Positions 7,335 to 16,519 of a DNA stretch of 64,000 bases are shown piece after piece. Origin of the DNA: Nautiliales bacterium (lineage in GTDB: Bacteria; Campylobacterota; Campylobacteria; Campylobacterales; JAADDX01). The stretch covers positions 1 through 64,000 of the forward strand of contig JAUUDM010000026.1 in NCBI GenBank assembly GCA_030826765.1, written 5' to 3'. Made by a program: the position numbers and the translations under genes. The notes beneath the pieces are model-generated. The model was not told where the DNA came from, made no database searches, and worked only from the letters and a program-made list of their open reading frames with translations. The first letter of the stretch is position 1. Every line of letters starts with the position of its first letter.

Positions 7335-7895
7335 TTAAACTTTCATAATTTCATCAGTTTTTTTAGATACTATTTCATCTATTTTTGCAACATAACTATC
7401 TGTAATTTTTTGGATTTCATCTAATGCTCTTTTTTCTTCATCTTCTGTAATTTCTTTGTCTTTGTGAAGTTTTTTAACTTTATCATTTGCATCTCTTCTA
7501 ACATTTCTTACTGCAATTTTAGCTTTTTCTGCAAATTCTTTCGCTTTTTTAGCTTGTTTTTTTCTTTCTTCTTCTGTCATTGGTGGGAAAAATAGTTTAA
7601 TAACTTCTCCATCATTATTCGGATTAACTCCAATATTTGCTACTTGAATCACGTGTTCAATATCTTTTAATAAATTTTTTTCCCAAGGATTAATTGTAAT
7701 AGTTGTTGCATCTGTTGCAAGAACTGAGCCTACTTGATTAAGAGGAGTTGGCGTTCCATAATAATCTACTTTAATATTTTCAACTACTGCTGTTGAAACT
7801 TTTCCTGTTCTAAGTGTGTTTAAATCGTGTTTTAAAGCCTCTATTGATTTGTCCATATGCTCTTTTGCATAATCATATACTTCATTTAATAGCAT
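7335..7895 (-). CDS. frr: Ribosome recycling factor
   Basis: 186 residues from the ATG at 7895, which matches the usual 185. An upstream in-frame extension to 7958 is open, but the start at 7895 has a strong AAAAGGAG site and the family length. RRF splits post-termination ribosomes together with EF-G. Motifs include [20 protein letters not shown] and the long helical C-terminal part. The extra upstream codons match the end of the nodB-like gene at 12.7 kb, so they are a relic of a duplicated gene end (see findings). Confidence 0.95.
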
Positions 7896-7968
7896 TTTTT
7901 CTCCTTTTACTTTTGTTATCATTTTAATATAAATTTCATTATTATACCTAAAAATCACCTTATTTTTA
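7893..7968 (-). repeat. Direct repeat copy A: nodB 3' end / frr start region
   Basis: This 76-bp segment matches, without gaps, the sequence made by joining 11275-11284 to 12749-12814 (copy B), with 11 mismatches. Translated upstream of frr it reads [18 protein letters not shown]; the end of the NodB-type deacetylase reads [18 protein letters not shown]. Most differences are silent. On the minus strand it also holds TATAAT (7941-7946), a possible -10 box for frr. Confidence 0.8.
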
Positions 7969-8007
7969 TCTTATCGTTTTTATAATTAAGGAAAAATATT
8001 AAAACTA

Positions 8008-8036
8008 TTGACAAATAGTACCATATTAAGTACTAT
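8008..8036 (+). promoter_or_regulatory. Toxin-antitoxin promoter with overlapping operator
   Basis: TTGACA (8008-8013), a 17-bp spacer and TACTAT (8031-8036) make a near-consensus sigma-70 promoter, rare in this window. It is covered by the inverted repeat TAGTAC-N8-GTACTA (8016-8035). The two GTAC cores are 12 bp apart centre to centre, the spacing described for YefM operators, so autoregulation by the antitoxin is likely. Confidence 0.8.
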
Positions 8037-8060
8037 ATAAAAAAATAAAAAGGATTTTTT

Positions 8061-8303
8061 ATGAGAAAAATAATTCCAGTAAGTAAAGCAAGAGCAAATA
8101 TTTATAATCTTATAGATGAAACAGCACAAACTCACGAACCTATTCTAATCACAGGAAAAAGAAATAATGCTGTAATGATTTCTCAAGAGGATTGGAATGC
8201 AATAGAAGAAACACTTTATTTAAATTCTCAAGGTGTAACTGATTCTATCATAGAAGCAATGAATGCTCCAGATAGCGAATTTAGCGAAGAAATAGAATGG
8301 TGA
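8061..8303 (+). CDS. Antitoxin, Phd/YefM family
   Basis: 80 residues. The N-terminal half (PVSKARANIYNLIDE...EPILITGKRNNAVMIS) is the DNA-binding Phd/YefM fold; the acidic C-terminus (SEFSEEIEW) should wrap the toxin. It neutralises the YoeB-like toxin encoded next and represses the pair's promoter. The gene overlaps the toxin start by 7 bp. It lies inside the accessory insert between frr and nodB. Confidence 0.92.
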   Translation: MRKIIPVSKARANIYNLIDETAQTHEPILITGKRNNAVMISQEDWNAIEETLYLNSQGVTDSIIEAMNAPDSEFSEEIEW

Positions 8304-8566
8304 AATATAAAATTCTTTATAGTAAAATGGCACAAAAAGATGCTAAAAAACTATCTCAGGCAAATTTAGATATAAAAGCTAAAAAATTAATAGAAATTTT
8401 AAAAAAAGACCCTTTTCAAAATCCCCCTCCTTATGAAAAATTAGTGGGAAATTTAAAGGGTGCTTATTCAAGACGAATAAATATTCAACATCGAATAGTT
8501 TATGAAGTAAAAGAGGAAGAAAAAGTCGTTAGAATATTAAGAATGTGGACACATTATGGGGAATAA
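8297..8566 (+). CDS. Toxin, Txe/YoeB family ribosome-dependent mRNase
   Basis: 89 residues, the normal size. YSKMAQKDAKKL, the Arg-containing GAYSRRINIQHRIVYEV segment and the C-terminal RMWTHYGE (ending near the family's catalytic His-Tyr pair) are intact. YoeB toxins bind ribosomes and cut mRNA at the A site. The toxin is probably active and held by the antitoxin encoded 5'. Confidence 0.92.
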   Translation: MVKYKILYSKMAQKDAKKLSQANLDIKAKKLIEILKKDPFQNPPPYEKLVGNLKGAYSRRINIQHRIVYEVKEEEKVVRILRMWTHYGE

Positions 8567-8579
8567 TAATTCTACTTAC

Positions 8580-9512
8580 TTAATTCTCAATTGAAGCTCT
8601 TAATTTTTCTATTACTTTAATAGCTTCTTCTAATTCCTTTTTATAAAGAGGTTTAGTAAAATCATTATGAGATTGAGGATGTAAAATATTTTTTAAAAAT
8701 ACATTAAAAATATTAAATTCATAATTAATATGAAATTTTTCAAAATATTCATCAAAACTTTTTATACTATTCATAACTTGTTCAGCAAATTTTTGACAAT
8801 TTTTACTTCTTATATTTTCTGTCATTTTCTCACAATGTTCAAATTTTTTCAATATTTTATAAATTTTTTTTAAATCTTCTATTATTTCTTTTATATTAGA
8901 ATAATCTTCTTTTAATTGAGATAATTCAATTTTTTTATTTAAATTATCTAACTTTAAATATTTATCAAATTGTTTTTCCACTTCTTTTCTTAAATAATTT
9001 AAACAAGCAGGATAATCCTTATTTTTAAAATGTTCTTTTGCTTTATTTATGTAACTATATTTTTCTCTATATTCTTTTATAAACGGATATTCTATATTAT
9101 TTTCACAATATTTATCTACATACATTTCAAAATATTTCCATTCTTTTGGAGCTTTAAAATTAAATTTTTGTTTTGCCATTTCGAAAAAAGCTCTATCGTG
9201 AGTTAAAATAATTATTTGATAATCTGGAAAATATTTTAATATTAAATCTAAAATAATATCTCTATTTGACATATCAAGACTTATTAATAAATCATCTAAT
9301 ACAAGAATTTTAAGTTCTTCTATTTCAGCATATGAAAGAATAATAGAAAAATAAAATGCTAAATTAATCGCAGAAATTTTTGCTTCATTAAAAAATTTTA
9401 AATAATTTTTTTTCTTTAAAATATTTTTTAAGTTCTAAAATCTTATTTGTTATTGAAGATTCTCTATACATATCTTTAAATGACTTTTTTTTATTAAATT
9501 TCAGGAAAATAT
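8580..9512 (-). pseudogene. Remnant of an SMC/RloC-like AAA ATPase (5' end missing, frameshifted)
   Basis: An open frame of 230 residues starts at 9272, but in-frame sequence continues upstream to the stop at 9435-9437 and reads NEAKISAINLAFYFSIILSY... then a Walker B-like LKILVLDDLLISLD and a downstream LTHDRAFF switch. No Walker A is present. Further upstream, the other frame reads SFKDMYRESSITNKILELKK, so a one-base shift near 9405-9430 (a T/A run) splits the gene. Homology ends near 9512, next to a helicase fragment. The C-terminal helices (KDYPACLNYLRKEVEKQF) resemble HEPN-like tails of anti-phage ATPases. This is a decayed copy, probably of a defence-type protein. Confidence 0.7.
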
Positions 9513-9515
9513 TCT

Positions 9516-9854
9516 ATGATTTTTTGCTATAATTTTAGCATTCAGACACAACTTTTTTGGTATGTCTCTATATTTGAACTTCCAAATGTATCAGAAGATT
9601 ATGTTCATAGAATCGGAAGAACTGGACGAGCAGGAAATTCAGGTGAGGCAATTTCGTTAGTTTGTATTGATGAAAAAGATTATTTAAGAGATATTGAAAA
9701 ACTTATAAAAAAAGATATTCCAAAAATAGAAATAGAAGGATTCAAACCAGACCCAACTATAAAAGCAGAAAATCCAGACCCTAGAAAAAATAATTCAAGA
9801 GGAAATGGAAATAGACAAAAAAGAAATTCAAATACTAACAATAGAAGAATATAA
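9516..9854 (+). pseudogene. C-terminal fragment of a RhlE-type DEAD-box RNA helicase
   Basis: From about 9573 the frame reads [20 protein letters not shown], motif VI of DEAD-box helicases, followed by a basic Asn/Arg-rich tail ending [10 protein letters not shown]. All earlier motifs (Q, Walker A, DEAD, SAT, Ia-V) are missing; the first 18 codons of the open frame do not resemble the family. It is a truncated gene end abutting the ATPase remnant on the opposite strand, marking a recombination junction at about 9512-9573. Confidence 0.8.
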
Positions 9855-9918
9855 ACTCTTCTCTTCTTTTAGAATCCAAAAATATAAGCACTATTTTTTA
9901 TATTAATTAAAATATTTC

Positions 9919-11277
9919 CTAAAAAAATATACCCAATCTAACTGTCCACCAATTATCTTTCCAAGCTTCTTCTCCTCCTATCACAAAACCTGTTCCAATA
10001 ACTATATTATCTGTTATTACTAAATCATTATTCCAAACAATATTAAAAAAATTACCTACTTTCTTAGTTCCTTTTTGAGAAAAAGGGAGTACATAATCTA
10101 TATCTATTGATGATTTTGAGCCACCTTTAGCTTGTAAAATCATTGTTGAAATACCTATAGAATTATATTCATAAGAATAATCATCTTTTACTATTGTACC
10201 TTTATCATCACAACAAATATCTCCAGATTTTTTATAATTTGCACTTCCTGTTGAAAGTTTAAGATAATATTTAGTTTTTAGATTAATTAGATATTCAAAT
10301 TGTGAGATATGAGAATATGTTTTTATATCTCTACAACAATTATCACTAAAATTAATAAATCCATTTATCATAAAATATTGTTTTTTAGAACTAAAAAAAT
10401 CAATAATATTATTATATCTTGATTTTATTTTATCTGTAAAAGAAGGACCTTTTGGAGTAATTTCTTCATTTTCATCTACAATTTGTTTTTCACCTAAAAA
10501 TTCATTTAAACTATTTATTTCATCAATATAAGGATTTTTAACAGATTGAATATCTCCTTCAACTTTTCCACTATAATTTACTATTAAACCATTATCATAA
10601 TTAACTTTTATATCATTCATAAGATATATAGAAGAAATTTTTATAAGAGATGGGCTTATATTATAGTTTTTTGCTAATACATTTTTAAATTTAGTTTTAA
10701 TTTTGCGTTTTAACTGCTTTTTACACTCATCTAAAGATAATGATTCTCCACCATTATAAGAAATTTGACCTATATCAATCAAATGTGTAGATAATAAATT
10801 AGTTTTTAATATATTATATTTTTGAAGAAGTTCATTTTTTTCTTCTATTGCTTTTGTTTTACTATTTTCTTCTTCAAACTGATTATTATACTTTTGACTT
10901 AATGCTAATAATTGAGATTTTAATTTAGAAGTATCAACTTCAAATTTCCCTTTTACTCGACAAGTTATATACCCTGTTTGAGGATTAAAATTTACTTTTT
11001 CTTCTTTTGAGCTTGTTTTAACAAAACCATAACTTTTTTGAAAACTATTATTAATTATAGTTTTTATTTTTCCATCATTCATAAAGGTTTGTTTTTTTTC
11101 AAAAGAAGTAAATATATTTATACCAGCTCTCTGTAATGCTTCTTTTTGAGCTAATAGTAAAGCTTTTTGACAAGCTTTATTTTTAGTTTCTGCTGTTGCA
11201 ATACCAGTTTGTATAATCATACTTCCAAAAGTAAAATCTATAAGTATCAATAAAACAATAATCTTATTGTTTAACAT
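9919..11277 (-). CDS. Exported FlgT-like N-domain protein with possible C-terminal beta-barrel
   Basis: 452 residues. A signal-like N-terminus (MLNNKIIVLLILIDFTFG) is followed by a GIATAETKNKACQKALLLAQ segment typical of LPP20/FlgT-N-like envelope domains. A Lys/Glu-rich coiled coil lies around 125-165. The last about 150 residues have alternating beta-type pattern and end in a terminal Phe (VRLGIFF), as outer-membrane barrels do. Cysteine pairs (NCCRD, DICCDD) stand out. I do not recognise the family. Its ribosome-binding GGAG is now supplied by the edge of the IS element; without the IS the gene would directly follow nodB. Confidence 0.55.
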   Translation of the reverse strand: MLNNKIIVLLILIDFTFGSMIIQTGIATAETKNKACQKALLLAQKEALQRAGINIFTSFEKKQTFMNDGKIKTIINNSFQKSYGFVKTSSKEEKVNFNPQTGYITCRVKGKFEVDTSKLKSQLLALSQKYNNQFEEENSKTKAIEEKNELLQKYNILKTNLLSTHLIDIGQISYNGGESLSLDECKKQLKRKIKTKFKNVLAKNYNISPSLIKISSIYLMNDIKVNYDNGLIVNYSGKVEGDIQSVKNPYIDEINSLNEFLGEKQIVDENEEITPKGPSFTDKIKSRYNNIIDFFSSKKQYFMINGFINFSDNCCRDIKTYSHISQFEYLINLKTKYYLKLSTGSANYKKSGDICCDDKGTIVKDDYSYEYNSIGISTMILQAKGGSKSSIDIDYVLPFSQKGTKKVGNFFNIVWNNDLVITDNIVIGTGFVIGGEEAWKDNWWTVRLGIFF

Positions 11278-11301
11278 TTAATCTCCTACTAATAAATTTA
11301 A

Positions 11302-11307
11302 TATAAT
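11302..11307 (+). promoter_or_regulatory. -10 box in IS left end, completed on circularisation
   Basis: TATAAT stands 17 bp from the inferred left edge. In the integrated copy no -35 is obvious. The right end finishes with TTGACT (12743-12748). Joining right to left end gives TTGACT-17 bp-TATAAT, an ideal sigma-70 promoter pointing into the candidate bridge RNA and transposase. Confidence 0.6.
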
Positions 11308-11314
11308 TACAAGT

Positions 11315-11481
11315 GAAGAGATAAGCAAGATGATCCCATTTTTTTTAGATCACTGATAGAACTTTCAAAAAAGTTTTATCAAATCTCTAAGGAGTCTATC
11401 ACTTGCTTAAAATCCCAATAAGTTGATTAGGCATAGAGCCTCTGTCATTATGGAGATAGGATAAAAGCAAGTTTGCTTATC
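11315..11481 (+). ncRNA. Candidate IS110 bridge RNA
   Basis: Non-coding left end of the IS110 element. Outer arms GATAAGCAA (11320-11328) and TTGCTTATC (11473-11481) can pair. Inside is a 10-bp hairpin (11355-11364 with 11371-11380, one G-U) and a second hairpin AGGC-ATAGA-GCCT (11429-11441). AGTTGA (11421-11426) just before the second hairpin equals the right-end donor (12741-12746), and GGAG (11452-11455) after it can pair with CTCC at the left end. After the first hairpin AAGGAG (11389-11394) can pair with the right target CTCTTT with one wobble. This matches donor- and target-loop logic. The RNA 5' and 3' ends are guesses. Confidence 0.6.
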
Positions 11482-11520
11482 TGTTCATTTGTAAAAATAA
11501 TATTTTGTAAAGGATTTGTG

Positions 11521-12701
11521 ATGTATAAACAATTCATAGGAATAGATATATCTAAAGATAGTTTTGATATAACACTATTTGAAAGTAATGCTGAAATTAA
11601 ATTGCAAGATAAGCTTACAATGGATAAAGATGGATTTAATAAATTATTAAACTATTTAGCATCTTATTCCAAAGATAATCTTTTAATAGCAATGGAAGCT
11701 ACTGGTATTTATCATTTACCATTATTATCTTTTTTATTAGAAAATAGTTTTAAATGTGTAGTTGTTAATCCTATACTTATAAAAAGTTTTATAAGTTCAA
11801 TTACACTTAGAAAAACTAAAACTGATAAAAAAGATTCATCTTCCATTGCTTTATTTGCTTTAAAATCACATCATTCATTATATCTTGCTACATTGAGTGA
11901 TATTGAAAATATCAAACCACTTATGCGTGAAAGAGAAACTCTCTCACAAGATATAGCAAGACTTAAAACTGAAATTAAAACTATCTTAGCCCAACTATTC
12001 CCTGAATTGTCAAAAAACACAAATATCTTTACTAAGAGCATTTTATCTCTGCTCCTTAAAGCCCCTAGTAGCAAAGCTATTGTGAGCTTTAAGGAAAAGA
12101 AAATTCAAAAAATTTTAAATAATACCAGTGGCAATAGAGTTAAAATTAGTGCTAATGAAATATTTTCATTGGTATATCAGACAAATATCTTGAAAAAGTT
12201 TTATCTTCTAAAATTAGAAGATTATTTTCTATTCAAGATGAATTGTCTTTTTTAGATACAGAGTTACAAAACTCTTTAGAAGATACTGATATCAATAACG
12301 ATATTGAAATTTTACAATCGATACCTGGTATTGGCTCAGTAACTTCTAAAAACTTTATGATTGAAATATTTTCTGTTACTAAATTTAATTCTGTTAAGCA
12401 ACTTTGTGCTTTTATTGGAATTGACCCTTCCACTAAACAAAGTGGCTCTTCAATCAACTATAAAGGCAAAATCTCTAAAAGAGGTAATCCTTATCTTAGA
12501 AGAACTATTTGGCAAATGGCTATTGGTGTTATTCGCTCTTGTCATATATTTAATACTTACTTCTCTAAAAAAAGAGAAGAAGGTAAAAATTTTAAACAAG
12601 CTGTCATAGCCACTGCCAATAAACTTCTTAGAACTATATTTGCATTGTTAAAGAACAAAACTAAATTTAATCAAAATTTAGTCTCAGGTGTTTCTAAATG
12701 A
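11521..12701 (+). pseudogene. IS110-family transposase, frameshifted
   Basis: ATG at 11521 after AAAGGA. The N-terminal DEDD (RuvC-like) domain shows FIGIDISKD, MEATGIYH and KTKTDKKDS. At about 12160-12180 the frame shifts: the first frame ends at 12255, while the second frame reads IGISDKYLEKVLSSKIRRL and goes on through IQSIPGIG-like and GKISKRGNPYLRR (the Transposase_20/catalytic-Ser half) to the stop at 12701. Because the shift separates the two catalytic halves, this copy should not make an active recombinase unless frameshifting occurs. It could be moved in trans by another copy. Confidence 0.9.
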
Positions 12702-12716
12702 AACATCTCTTTTTTA
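12686..12716 (+). terminator. Terminator at the end of the IS110 transposase
   Basis: AGGTGTTTC and GAAACATCT (one G-T pair) enclose loop TAAAT and are followed by a run of T with a single C. The stop codon of the transposase lies in the hairpin. It should keep IS transcripts from entering the oppositely oriented nodB gene. Confidence 0.75.
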
Positions 12717-12723
12717 TATTTTT

Positions 12724-13671
12724 TTATTGGAGTTCTTTATAGTTGACTCTTTTTACTTTCGTCACCATTTTAATATAAATTTCATTGTTATATCTTAAAA
12801 TCACCCTATTTCTAAAATTTTTAAGAGTAAAATTTGGAGTATATTCAAAATATCCATTTTTAGTTCTTATCCACTTCCAACCAAGTTTAGTAATATAAAC
12901 TTCTACTTTTTTATATGGAACTATTGCAGATATTTTTAAGATTTTATTTTTATCTCTAATTAATTTAAAATTTTTAACATCCATCTCTTTAATATTTAAT
13001 CTTTTAGATATATCAACATCACCAGTAAGTGCAATTCTTGGGACATCTATAAAAGAACTGTTTTTATTTATTCCACCTTCATTTTGATTATAAATATATT
13101 TAAATCCAAAGTTAACTAATACTTTTTGAACTCTTTTATCATATTCTCCATATGGATAAGCATAACTATCTGGAGAATACCCAATATTTTTAGTAAATAA
13201 ATTAAAAGCTTTTTTTGTATCTTTTATAATTTCTTCATTTGTTAAAGTAGTTAAATGTGGATGAGCATATGAATGAAGCTGTACATCTCCATATTTTTTA
13301 ACTTCTCTTACCATTTTCCAAGTCATAAAATCACCAAAATGCTTATCAGTTCCTTTTACATAAACAAACAAAGTAAAAGGATAATGAAACTTTTTAAACA
13401 AAGGAAATCCATTTTTATAAAAAGACTTAAAACTATCATCTATTTGAAAAGAAACATATTTATCTACATTTTTTCCTTCTTTTGCCATTTTTAGCAAAGT
13501 TTTAGAATTAACTACTTTATAATTATGTTCTTTTAAATATTTAAAATTTTTAAGAAGTTCTTTTGTAGAAGTGTTTGTATAAAGATGTCTAAAATCATCA
13601 AAACGATGATATAAAAATATATGCCCATCTGCCCATAAAAAAAAGGGCAGAAAGAAAAAAATTATTCTCAT
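12724..13671 (-). CDS. Secreted polysaccharide deacetylase (NodB domain)
   Basis: 315 residues. A short signal peptide (MRIIFFFLPFFLWADG) precedes a NodB fold with SFQIDDSF (the TFDDG-type Asp pair), HSYAHPHL (H-x3-H metal ligands) and YAYPYGEYD. It probably removes acetyl or formyl groups from a cell-wall or surface sugar polymer. The ATG overlaps the secG stop by 4 bp. The last seven residues before the stop (VNYKELQ) appear to be coded by the IS110 right end; the ancestral gene would have ended ...KVKRD. The truncation is minor and should not affect the fold. Confidence 0.88.
   Translation of the reverse strand: MRIIFFFLPFFLWADGHIFLYHRFDDFRHLYTNTSTKELLKNFKYLKEHNYKVVNSKTLLKMAKEGKNVDKYVSFQIDDSFKSFYKNGFPLFKKFHYPFTLFVYVKGTDKHFGDFMTWKMVREVKKYGDVQLHSYAHPHLTTLTNEEIIKDTKKAFNLFTKNIGYSPDSYAYPYGEYDKRVQKVLVNFGFKYIYNQNEGGINKNSSFIDVPRIALTGDVDISKRLNIKEMDVKNFKLIRDKNKILKISAIVPYKKVEVYITKLGWKWIRTKNGYFEYTPNFTLKNFRNRVILRYNNEIYIKMVTKVKRVNYKELQ
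12749..12814 (-). repeat. Direct repeat copy B, main part (other part at 11275-11284)
   Basis: Together with 11275-11284 this forms a 76-bp match to 7893-7968. It is the 3' end of the deacetylase gene, split from the next start codon by the IS. A natural empty site would read like the frr upstream region. Confidence 0.75.
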
Positions 13672-13979
13672 TTTACAGGTGCTGATGGAACAGTAGGAAC
13701 TTTTGGAGCTACCGGTTGAGTGATTTTTACATTATCAATTACAGACACAGTTTTTTGAGAATTATACATATAAACTAATGTTAATGTATTTATAACAAAA
13801 AGTAATCCAAGTGTGAATGTAGCTTTTTGTAAAAAACTAACAGGTCCTTTTGCACCAAAAAGTGATTCATTACTTCCACTATATGCACCAAGCCCGATTG
13901 ATGAAGATTTTTGCATTAAAACCGCAATTGTAAGCAATACAGCAAGTGCAATTTGAATTATAATTAATGTAGATGTCAT
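13668..13979 (-). CDS. secG: Preprotein translocase subunit SecG
   Basis: 103 residues with two membrane helices (about 4-22 and 50-70). Between them is the SecG signature LMQKSSSIGLGAYSGS...LFGAKGP. SecG aids SecYE in protein export across the inner membrane. A Pro/Val-rich tail ends the protein. In Campylobacter and Helicobacter secG sits just before frr; here nodB and the accessory insert lie between them. Confidence 0.95.
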   Translation of the reverse strand: MTSTLIIIQIALAVLLTIAVLMQKSSSIGLGAYSGSNESLFGAKGPVSFLQKATFTLGLLFVINTLTLVYMYNSQKTVSVIDNVKITQPVAPKVPTVPSAPVK

Positions 13980-13987
13980 TAATATCC

Positions 13988-14015
13988 TTTTTTTGATAAA
14001 ATTATATCAAAAAAA
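13988..14015. promoter_or_regulatory. Palindromic divergent promoter between secG and the methyltransferase
   Basis: TTTTTTTGATA-AAATTA-TATCAAAAAAA is a perfect inverted repeat with 11-bp arms in the 45-bp gap. Read on the minus strand its centre gives TATAAT for secG; on the plus strand TAAAAT serves the methyltransferase. The symmetry probably reflects two back-to-back A-rich leaders rather than a repressor site. Confidence 0.5.
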
Positions 14016-14024
14016 AGAGATTTT

Positions 14025-14714
14025 ATGAATATAAAAAGAGAATTTTCAAAATATGCAAATGAATATCAAAAGTTAAATATTATTCAAAAAAAAATTATTC
14101 AAAAAATTTCTCCTTTATTAGAAAACAAAAATATTTTAGATTTAGGTTGTGGAAATGGAAGTTTACTTGAATTTAGTAAACCAAAAAATTATATAGGAAT
14201 TGATTTTAGTGAAGAAATGCTAAAACTAAATCCTTCAAAAAATCTCTATAATTTAGACTTTAATACTCAAAAGTGCTGGGATTTTATAAATAAACAAAAT
14301 TTTGATATTTTAGTTTCACTTTCAGCTCTTCAATGGGCAGAAAATTTAGAATTTATTTTTACAAATATAAAAAATTTAAACAAAAATTATATTTTAGCAA
14401 TTTTCACATCAAATACTTTTAAAACTTTGCATAAAACAGCAAATATAACATCACCAATTCATTCAAAAGAAGAAATTTTAGAAAAATCTAAAATTTTAAA
14501 CCCTAAGATAGAGATTATAAATTACCAGCTTGAATTTGAAAACTCACTTGAAATGCTTAGATACATCAAAAAAAGTGGAGTAAGCTCAGGAGAGAAAAAA
14601 CTCTCCTATAAAGAGATAAAAAAAGTAATAGAAAACTATCCTTTTAATTATCTTGAATTTGAGATAGTTATCTTAAAATCCAAAAATATGAGGGAAAAAC
14701 ACCATTCCTGCTAA
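14025..14714 (+). CDS. BioC-like SAM-dependent methyltransferase
   Basis: 229 residues. FSKYANEYQKLN at the N-terminus, LDLGCGNGSLLEF (SAM motif I, about 38-50) and SLSALQWAEN (about 99-108) are the pattern of BioC, which methylates malonyl-ACP at the start of biotin synthesis. No biotin genes are next to it, so another methyl acceptor is possible. It runs tail to tail with the TRAP gene dctM and overlaps it by 42 bp. Confidence 0.7.
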   Translation: MNIKREFSKYANEYQKLNIIQKKIIQKISPLLENKNILDLGCGNGSLLEFSKPKNYIGIDFSEEMLKLNPSKNLYNLDFNTQKCWDFINKQNFDILVSLSALQWAENLEFIFTNIKNLNKNYILAIFTSNTFKTLHKTANITSPIHSKEEILEKSKILNPKIEIINYQLEFENSLEMLRYIKKSGVSSGEKKLSYKEIKKVIENYPFNYLEFEIVILKSKNMREKHHSC

Positions 14715-15995
14715 AACAGTCATTTGAATTAAAATAAATGGAATTACACCTTTATAAATATCAATTGTTGTAACCTCTTTTGGTGCCACTCCTCGAAGAT
14801 AAAATAAACTAAATCCAAACGGAGGAGTAAGAAATGATGATTGTAAATTCATAGCAATTAGTATTGCAAACCAAATAGGATTAATTCCTAAATCACTTGC
14901 AACAGGTAGTAAAATAGGAATAACAATATAACTTATTTCTATAAAATCTATAAAAAACCCTAAAAAGAAAATAATCGCCATTACTAAAAATATAAATAGC
15001 ATTTTCGCGTGTGGCAGTGAAGTCAAAAAGTCTTCTATAATTCCATCAGCCCCGCTATAAGTAAAAACCATACTAAAAGCCGTTGCACCAATTAAAATAG
15101 CAAATACCATTGATGTAATTTTCACTGCATCCAAGCTTGCTTCTTCTATTAGTTTAAAACTAAGTTTTCCATAAAAAAATGCTAAGACAATCGCACCAAT
15201 AGCCCCTACACTTGCACTCTCAGTTGCAGTAGCAATCCCTGCAAAAATACTACCTAAAACTAAAATAATTAAAACAAGAGGAGGAATTAAAGCTATAAAA
15301 ACCTCTTTGAAATTAATTTTTACACTTGGCATAGCTGGAGCTATATCTTTTTTAAGATTTGCAATAACCAAAATATAAACAATATAAGCACCTACCAAAA
15401 AAACACTTGGAATTACTGCAGCTTTAAATAAATCCCCTACTGGTTGATTAAAAACATCAGCTAAAATAATCAAAACTATACTTGGTGGAATAATCTGTCC
15501 AAGTGTTCCACTCGCACAAATTGTTCCACAAGATAAACCTTTATTATATCCGTGTTTGAGCATAACAGGTAAGGCAATAACACCCATAGCAACTACACTT
15601 GCCCCTACAACTCCAGTACTTGCTGCAAGCATTGTTCCAATAATTATCGTAGAAACTGCTAAACCACCTCTAATTTTTCCAAAAAGTGTTCCCATACTTT
15701 CAAGAAGTCTTGCAGCTATTCCACTTTTTTCTAACACAACACCCATAAAAATAAATAAAGGAATTGCAATTAATATTTTATTTCCAATAATTGCATAAAT
15801 TCTAAAAGGCATCATCGAAAACATACTTAAAAATTCAGCACTCCAATCAGAAAAATGAACTATTCCATCTTGAGCTAATTCAAAATAACTCGCAATTGCA
15901 CCAAAAATCAGAGCAACTGCTCCAAATGTAAAAGCAACTCCAAATCCCAAAAGCAACATAAAAAAGGCTGCTACAAACATTATTAAACCAGTCAT
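14673..15995 (-). CDS. dctM: TRAP transporter large membrane subunit (DctM)
   Basis: 440 residues with about 12 membrane segments. GTICASGTLGQIIPPSIVLIIL and LGFFIDFIEI are typical DctM segments (the first quoted only in part by family custom). It forms the Na+-driven channel of a tripartite ATP-independent periplasmic transporter. It overlaps dctQ by 4 bp. The substrate is suggested by DctP (see that entry). Confidence 0.95.
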   Translation of the reverse strand: MTGLIMFVAAFFMLLLGFGVAFTFGAVALIFGAIASYFELAQDGIVHFSDWSAEFLSMFSMMPFRIYAIIGNKILIAIPLFIFMGVVLEKSGIAARLLESMGTLFGKIRGGLAVSTIIIGTMLAASTGVVGASVVAMGVIALPVMLKHGYNKGLSCGTICASGTLGQIIPPSIVLIILADVFNQPVGDLFKAAVIPSVFLVGAYIVYILVIANLKKDIAPAMPSVKINFKEVFIALIPPLVLIILVLGSIFAGIATATESASVGAIGAIVLAFFYGKLSFKLIEEASLDAVKITSMVFAILIGATAFSMVFTYSGADGIIEDFLTSLPHAKMLFIFLVMAIIFFLGFFIDFIEISYIVIPILLPVASDLGINPIWFAILIAMNLQSSFLTPPFGFSLFYLRGVAPKEVTTIDIYKGVIPFILIQMTVLAGMVFFPHIFGF

Positions 15996-16519
15996 ACCTC
16001 AACATCCTCTTTTACTTTTTTATTTTCTCTAAATATTATTATATTTTTTGTAATATATCCAATTGAAGTAATTATCAAATATATGAAACTCAAAGGAATC
16101 ATACTTTTTATAATCCATCTATGAGTTAATCCTCCTGGATCATCACTAATTTCATGCGTTACATAACTATCCATTACAAAATCATAACTTACATAAATAA
16201 TAAAAATACTTAAAGGAATTATAAAAAAAATAGTTCCAAAAATATTGATAAGTGCTTGAGTTTTAGGTGAAAATCTGTTGTATAAAAAATCAACTCTTAC
16301 ATGAGCTTCTTCTCTTAATGCATAACTTACCCCAAAAAGTATCATAACTCCAAAAATATGCCATTCAAGTTCTTGCATAGCAATACTTCCACCATGGAAA
16401 AAGTATCTGCTAACAACATCATAAAAAACATTCATAATCAGTAAAATCATTATAATCGCTAATATTTTACCTGTTATGGTGTTTAATTTTTCAAAAAAAT
16501 TGTCTAAAGTTTTTATCAT
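15992..16519 (-). CDS. dctQ: TRAP transporter small membrane subunit (DctQ)
   Basis: 175 residues with four membrane helices and the DctQ pattern MNVFYDVVSRYFF and ELEWHIFGVMILFGVSYAL. It links DctP to DctM. It lies 24 bp behind dctP and overlaps dctM by 4 bp. Confidence 0.93.
   Translation of the reverse strand: MIKTLDNFFEKLNTITGKILAIIMILLIMNVFYDVVSRYFFHGGSIAMQELEWHIFGVMILFGVSYALREEAHVRVDFLYNRFSPKTQALINIFGTIFFIIPLSIFIIYVSYDFVMDSYVTHEISDDPGGLTHRWIIKSMIPLSFIYLIITSIGYITKNIIIFRENKKVKEDVEV

Follow-up and report, generated by a model that had tools for sequence, protein, structure and literature searches.

The window, by which we mean the whole 64,000-nucleotide stretch analysed here, holds an IS110-type element that runs from a core dinucleotide CT at 11283-11284 to a second CT at 12747-12748 (features are on the + strand unless stated otherwise). 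The left core was placed by the edge shared among copies at different sites and by empty sites in a relative, and the right core by the ends of relatives and by empty sites. Just inside the cores lie a left terminus that is conserved in relatives (CCTACTAATAAATTTAA, 11285-11301) and a right terminus that doubles as the left donor (TAGTTGA, 12740-12746). Right ends read AGTTGA-CT in all nine relatives in which they were reached, and left ends begin with CT-CCTAC or close forms. Other CT pairs were considered as the core of the window element and dropped, as CTCCTAC at the left end and AGTTGACT at the right are common to copies in different locations, and the G398 sites described below carry a single CT at that place. 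To the left of the element, the target flank (11275-11282, - strand) consists, by the sequence and the list of open reading frames, of a start codon (CAT on the + strand, 11275-11277) and the 5-nt spacer TTAAT; this is the start codon of a 452-aa gene at 9919-11277, and its gap to the core is 5. On the right, CTTTTT (12749-12754) is the upstream half of the original Shine-Dalgarno sequence and is CCTT-like in relatives of the Shine-Dalgarno (SD) type defined below.

The element encodes a recombinase in two pieces. The N-terminal DEDD part occupies the first frame (11521-12255; open reading frame list, and PF01548 at 2e-33), and the C-terminal part with the SGSS motif occupies another (12165-12701; PF02371 at 2.6e-24), both matches being above cut-off. 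The reading frame is broken between about 12165 and 12213, where the two frames overlap, a break on which the first-pass annotation was silent; the window copy is therefore probably immobile or dead. L007, an intact relative, has a recombinase similar to those of ISCro4 and IS621, whose structures are solved; its alignment to ISCro4, read by eye, shows that it keeps the D, E, D/D and SGSS positions, which we take to be the catalytic letters of IS110 family recombinases. Only 45 bp separate the recombinase stop from the right core in the window.

DNA, protein and RNA-model searches found the window element as the sole copy in its genome, besides a 28-bp exact copy of the left terminus at G000:C5 31593-31620 (L003/L119 1501-1528). 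A 263-aa frame has its ATG 6 nt from this short copy, which is probably what remains of a second insertion. Scanning genome contigs gave 275 relatives, and the best 80 of 275 were kept. In the tree, the row closest to the window protein shares 76% identity with it, and the closest rows come from Campylobacterota or from genomes of the same order, so the recombinases lend no support to the deep-branching lineage suggested by the first-pass annotation. Among 397 genomes of the phylum, with at most four candidates scored per genome, six reached E 1e-40 or better, counting the genome of the window itself.

Elsewhere in the window, a 68-bp stretch at 7901-7968 is 87% alike to 12747-12814 and begins exactly at the right core; the copy at 7901 reads CATTTTTTCTCCTTTTAC and resembles an unoccupied relative of the target. 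A YefM/YoeB-like toxin-antitoxin pair (PhdYeFM_antitox, YoeB_toxin) lies at 8061-8566. An Rfam search of positions 7500-16000 returned one weak match, which is irrelevant here.

Predicted bridge RNA and junction promoter

The first-pass annotation proposed a folded non-coding region at the left end enclosed by a stem, and we find this stem in place, with GATAAGCAA at 11320-11328 pairing with TTGCTTATC at 11473-11481. The longest stem between the outer arms is 11 bp (AGATAAGCAAG, 11319-11329, with TTTGCTTATCT, 11472-11482), a length reached by 0 of 100 letter shuffles. Relatives have this stem too, built from different letters. Of 34 left ends compared, only 18 have a stem that is matched by at most 5 of 100 shuffles, which counts against the explanation that we prefer. 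When the window and 30 relatives are aligned, the 31 left ends fold as two stem-loops, each with an internal loop. Their four helices comprise 24 pairs, 14 of which show two-sided changes. Paired cells make up 98.3% of this alignment compared with 88.6% in shuffles, cells with two-sided changes number 88 compared with 23.4, and sliding the partners along leaves just 38.7-56.0% of cells paired. All 500 shuffles fall below the alignment in four of five structure measures; in the fifth, which counts further pair types, the alignment does not rise above the shuffles (330 of 500).

A covariance model built from these rows, of which the window is one of the 31 used in training, matches the window at 11321-11491, upstream of the recombinase, with 111.8 bits and an E value of 1.3e-26. 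A covariance-model search of left ends had been suggested as a check on the original proposal, and it yielded 49 matches at left ends in 73 sources, 18 of the 49 lying outside the training rows. We place the predicted bridge RNA at 11314-11491, its 5′ end near 11314 being set by the -10 box. The 5′ strand at 11319-11329 can also pair with the target-loop stem (about 11402-11409) in place of the RNA 3′ end (11472-11482), a possible two-state fold that occurs in several relatives as well.

The -10 box itself (TATAAT, 11302-11307) lies just upstream. As the first-pass annotation had pointed out, joining the ends brings the right-end TTGA (12743-12746), the first part of the -35 box, together with the core CT and the left end to give TTGACT, 17 bp and TATAAT. 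Across 36 left ends, the -10 box at the junction matches at a mean of 4.72 of 6 letters compared with 3.14 after shuffling, and it is weak (three letters matching or fewer) in 5 of the 36. The circle junction thus forms a sequence of sigma-70 promoter type, from which the predicted RNA would be transcribed.

Guide loops and the proposed translation-start address

Guides were read from the loops of the model alignment, the left guide before the terminal hairpin and the right guide after it, with the left guides of L012 and L013 trimmed by hand to end at the core. The resulting set holds 42 RNA rows, 29 with a right target and 36 with a left target. Right guides pair with their right targets at a mean of 6.21 of 7 Watson-Crick positions over the 29 loci, compared with 4.08 in shuffled pairings (0 of 5000 shuffles), and at 4.21 of 5 compared with 2.09 without the core. 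For left guides and left targets the mean is 6.11 of 9 over 36 loci, compared with 4.77 (0 of 5000 shuffles), and 4.36 of 7 compared with 3.02 without the core. Thus, across relatives the target loop changes with the flanks on both sides, the very point on which the first-pass annotation had staked its proposal. Individual pairs illustrate this: right guide and target read AAGAAAG and CTTTCTT in L010, ATACGAG and CTCGTAT in L011, and ACTACAG and CTGTAGT in L027, where the left guide TGAGTACTTCCT lies on TGAGTTCTTCCT.

In the window, the right target guide TAAGGAG (11388-11394), identified by its loop and by covariation, is Shine-Dalgarno-like; its AAGGAG (11389-11394) pairs with the right target CTCTTT (12747-12752) with one G-T wobble, as first proposed. 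The left target guide CCCATTTTTTTT (11335-11346), identified in the same way, carries a CAT that lines up with a start codon lying 5 nt from the core and reads UU at the core itself, and it pairs at 7 of 9 positions (6 Watson-Crick). Both the single wobble on the right and the 7 of 9 on the left count against our preferred explanation. The donor guides named in the first-pass annotation are also found: AGTTGA at 11421-11426 is identical to the right end at 12741-12746, and GGAG at 11452-11455, the right donor guide, is complementary to the left-end CTCC at 11283-11286. By sequence and alignment, the full left donor guide is AGTTGATT (11421-11428), which has one wobble at the core with respect to the right end AGTTGACT. 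Across relatives the donor guides match the element ends, and the donor is too conserved for a covariation test. Next to these guides lie two candidate handshake guides. In the target loop, TC (11395-11396) is complementary to the donor GA at 12745-12746 and is present in 21 of 42 RNAs. In the donor loop, AT (11456-11457) is complementary to AT of the left target (11281-11282), and over 34 loci the two nucleotides at this place, 3′ of the right donor guide, change in step with the left target (2 of 5000 shuffles), behaving as the handshake guides described for IS621 would (PMC11208158). With target guides that covary with the flanks, donor guides that match the ends, and -35 and -10 boxes that meet at the junction, the IS110 bridge-RNA plan first suggested for this region is supported.

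The first-pass annotation overlooked the address that these guides spell, which is a Shine-Dalgarno/start-codon site. Right guides end in GGAG in 17 of 42 RNAs, 15 of them as AAGGAG, and we refer to these as SD type. The left guide contains CAT in all 17 of them, 14 times in the same position, compared with 3 of the 25 others. Taken together, the commonest form of the left and right guides is the reverse complement of AAGGAG-N5-ATG. Consistently, a start codon with an open frame lies 4-10 nt away at 31 of 35 SD-type sites (30 ATG and one TTG). The same holds for 3 of 21 sites of relatives with other guides, all three in the L011-L013 group, and for 251 of 1313 further AGGAG sites in the loci, a background from which the elements' own sites were excluded. 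Fisher tests give p 5e-18 for the comparison with the AGGAG sites and 3e-8 for that with the other elements, although related elements are not independent samples. The 35 sites are those of 15 of the 17 SD-type rows (L007 and L042 have no usable left flank) and of 20 further copies, and the 21 are those of the 25 other rows minus L025, L028, L033 and L041, which have no left flank. The remnant L119, which has no RNA, was assigned to the SD type by its left end, and L211 by its left end and model score. Outside the site counts are L201, the copies L202 and L206 with no left end, and 4 of 15 matches in G424 that have no locus.

Copies added later that could be read retain CAT and AAGGAG, with the exception of L201 (G425), a second and apparently decayed copy with CGGGAG as right guide, no CAT in the left guide and no start codon found at its site; including it gives 17 of 18 for CAT and 31 of 36 for sites before a start codon. 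The four SD-type sites of 35 that have no start codon are those of L019, L040, L210 and L212. Ten of the 31 genes behind SD-type sites were picked by hand, and in all ten a Pfam match begins within the first 39 residues, among them rpoB (RNA polymerase beta), UDP-glucose dehydrogenase, HU and ThiS. In one case (L204, in G420), the copy lies immediately 5′ of the start codon of rpoB, the gene for the RNA polymerase beta subunit. Another copy (L089, in G054) is inserted within a CRISPR spacer that carries a Shine-Dalgarno sequence and ATG on the reverse strand (around 1268 and 2731). Since this site is in a CRISPR spacer, the frame counted there is not a real gene, and it seems that the sequence alone is enough as a target.

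For the host's own AAGGAG-ATG pairs in Campylobacterota loci, a gap of 5 is the commonest (21 of 39), and CAT stands in this register in 14 of 17 left guides. Gaps at the elements range from 5 to 10 at SD-type sites; they do not differ from host gaps within Campylobacterota (p 0.77 and 0.28) and do differ over all loci (p 0.016 and 0.011). When only the SD type is considered, left guides fit their own left targets no better than shuffled pairs do (405 of 5000), and therefore the left guide at best reads a generic CAT and an A/T-rich spacer. At three of three sites, the sister group L011-L013, with the right guide ATACGAG or ATATGAG, also lies before ATG; its target may join a -10-like box to a Shine-Dalgarno sequence.

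The exchange point is visible at two sites. The flanks of two G054 copies (L095 and L100) were searched in the genus of G054, and both pairs align across the junction in the sister species G398, which has no element there. Each empty site has one CT, with AAGGAG a few nucleotides before ATG, so that insertion took place at the core dinucleotide without further target duplication; the L095 alignment has a 16-bp length difference starting 8 bp to the right of the core start. Searches for an empty site of the window copy found none, nor did those for G325, whose genus holds one genome, and those for G075 gave none that was convincing. One G325 copy (L115), otherwise identical to the others, has TT as left core (1463) and CT as right core (about 2941), with UU as the core of its left guide. 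A left core of TT is expected if this core derives from the target, and the unequal cores are perhaps the trace of a mismatched core at exchange.

Proposed mechanism, alternatives and related systems

Our analysis makes it very probable that the left end of this IS110-group element encodes a predicted bridge RNA that would steer the circular form to Shine-Dalgarno/start-codon sites, with CT as the likely exchange point. Excision would join the right-end TTGA-CT to the left end and thereby create the sigma-70-type promoter for the RNA. The donor loop, through AGTTGATT and GGAG, would then hold the circle junction while the target loop holds the target, the right guide AAGGAG lying on the strand opposite the Shine-Dalgarno sequence and the left guide, as CAT-N5-core, over the spacer and start codon. 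Guides and targets are complementary and covary, and binding would rest on this pairing. Exchange at CT would insert the element in one orientation with no further duplication; the states before and after insertion are observed at the two empty sites in the relative, and the exchange reaction is our proposed path between them. Because the element begins with CT-CCTA, the complement of its own left end restores AGGAG at the original distance from ATG. The gene beside the insertion is thus likely spared, and would keep its AGGAG, and presumably its expression, unchanged; the insertion directly before rpoB in a relative fits with this.

The start-codon position could also arise from selection only, in which case an ordinary IS110 bridge RNA would have AAGGAG as its right guide by chance, together with a left guide that ignores the start codon. 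Outside genes, AAGGAG is often a Shine-Dalgarno sequence, and insertions within genes are purged; such selection could enrich SD sites even if ATG is not read. The lack of individual matching between left guides and left targets within the SD type, as well as element gaps that resemble host gaps in Campylobacterota, speak for this account. However, it leaves unexplained why CAT is present in 17 of 17 SD-type left guides (17 of 18 with L201), 14 of them in the same register, and in only 3 of 25 others, and the copy in the CRISPR spacer lies 6 nt from ATG even though gene disruption is no filter there. We consider selection alone unlikely for these reasons. Far less probable still is that the conserved structure serves as a regulatory leader or antisense-type RNA for recombinase expression and guides no recombination. 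Its position directly upstream of the recombinase frame would suit such a role, but the loop letters track the target flanks and the donor loops copy the ends, and a leader needs neither.

Compatible with RNA-guided targeting of translation starts, which we continue to prefer, is the somewhat favoured view that the window copy itself is a decayed remnant whose left end no longer functions, while its relatives work as described. The recombinase in two frames that overlap at about 12165-12213 and the single copy in the genome, apart from the 28-bp left-end remnant, are consistent with decay, whereas the two ends, like the RNA region, are conserved and undamaged, and in a draft assembly one frameshift may reflect a sequencing error.

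A target motif of this kind was reportedly noted already in the first work on IS900, an IS110 family element. In Mycobacterium avium subsp. paratuberculosis, its motif is described as CATGNNNNNNTCTCCTT, found by MEME (PMC8141618), and thus an IS110 element with this target class is already known. The likeness in target motif lies in the order CAT, spacer and CTCCTT (PMC8141618). IS900 differs in the distance between CAT and the CT of CTCCTT (8 nt, compared with mostly 5-6 here), in its mycobacterial host, and in that the MEME account gives the motif without an RNA explanation (PMC8141618). The looser IS900-like form (a start codon, then CTCC at 4-10 nt) is matched by 31 of 35 SD-type sites, and the exact IS900 spacing, with G after CAT and T before CTCC, is not general among them. 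The word IS900 is absent from the main text of the bridge RNA and seekRNA papers PMC11187229 and PMC11208160, and among the matches listed in open-licence literature without preprints we found no account of guide loops encoding a Shine-Dalgarno sequence and ATG. What appears to be new here is that the guide loops spell a Shine-Dalgarno sequence and a start codon; the machine is the same, and the address is a universal signal of gene expression.

The machine closely resembles IS621 as it is described in PMC11208160 and PMC11208158, with a DEDD and Transposase_20 recombinase, an RNA in the left end, a CT core, a junction promoter and handshake guides, and with two stem-loops whose internal loops guide first target and then donor (PMC11208160). 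In that description, however, the target of IS621 is REP rather than a Shine-Dalgarno/start-codon site, and its right guide pairs over 4 nt, compared with about 7 nt here (PMC11208160); moreover, in the present case the core of the target motif is rebuilt by the left end, and the window recombinase is frameshifted. Elements of the IS1111 group have related recombinases and RNA-guided target choice in the seekRNA work (PMC11187229), but are described with the RNA in the right end (PMC11208160). In the window element the RNA is in the left end and not, as in that group, in the right.

More broadly, and with some confidence, we propose a class of RNA-guided recombinases that use the translation-start signal as genomic address, split the ribosome-binding site and start codon over the two target guides, repair the site by the element end, and have gained or lost this address more than once, with IS900 as a further case. 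If this is true, a bridge RNA that carries an idealised ribosome-binding site and start codon would have many sites in any bacterial genome, and an element end that rebuilds the ribosome-binding site would permit settling before even essential genes. This would answer how a fixed guide can find many tolerable sites across hosts, namely by targeting a universal signal and then repairing it, and it offers a possible mechanism for the IS900 target motif. It would also add bridge recombinases of Campylobacterota, Nitrospirota and others, with right-guide pairing over about 7 nt, and suggest a testable design rule for bridge-recombinase engineering, in which insertion is directed to ribosome-binding sites and the site is restored.

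Mapped onto a tree built from 52 N-terminal sequences, the SD-type label requires six changes, and strongly supported branches force at least two of them; gain or loss of the address therefore took place more than once. According to record titles, SD-type guides are found in Campylobacterota, Cloacimonadota, Desulfofervidaceae, Nitrospirota and Acetomicrobium (Synergistota), whose single site lacks a start codon, as well as in a contig assigned to Thermoplasmatota, which may be misbinned. Nearly the same element (L016 and L017) is present in the Desulfofervidaceae and Thermoplasmatota assemblies, through recent transfer or misbinning. Viral contigs gave one distant relative at 30% identity, and plasmids gave at least 5000 matching records, all under 60% identity among the matches listed. 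G054 holds two copies and a degenerate third, and G075 holds two. The complete genome G325 carries six copies of identical 1476-bp sequence, all six before ATG, and these intact copies suggest recent activity there.
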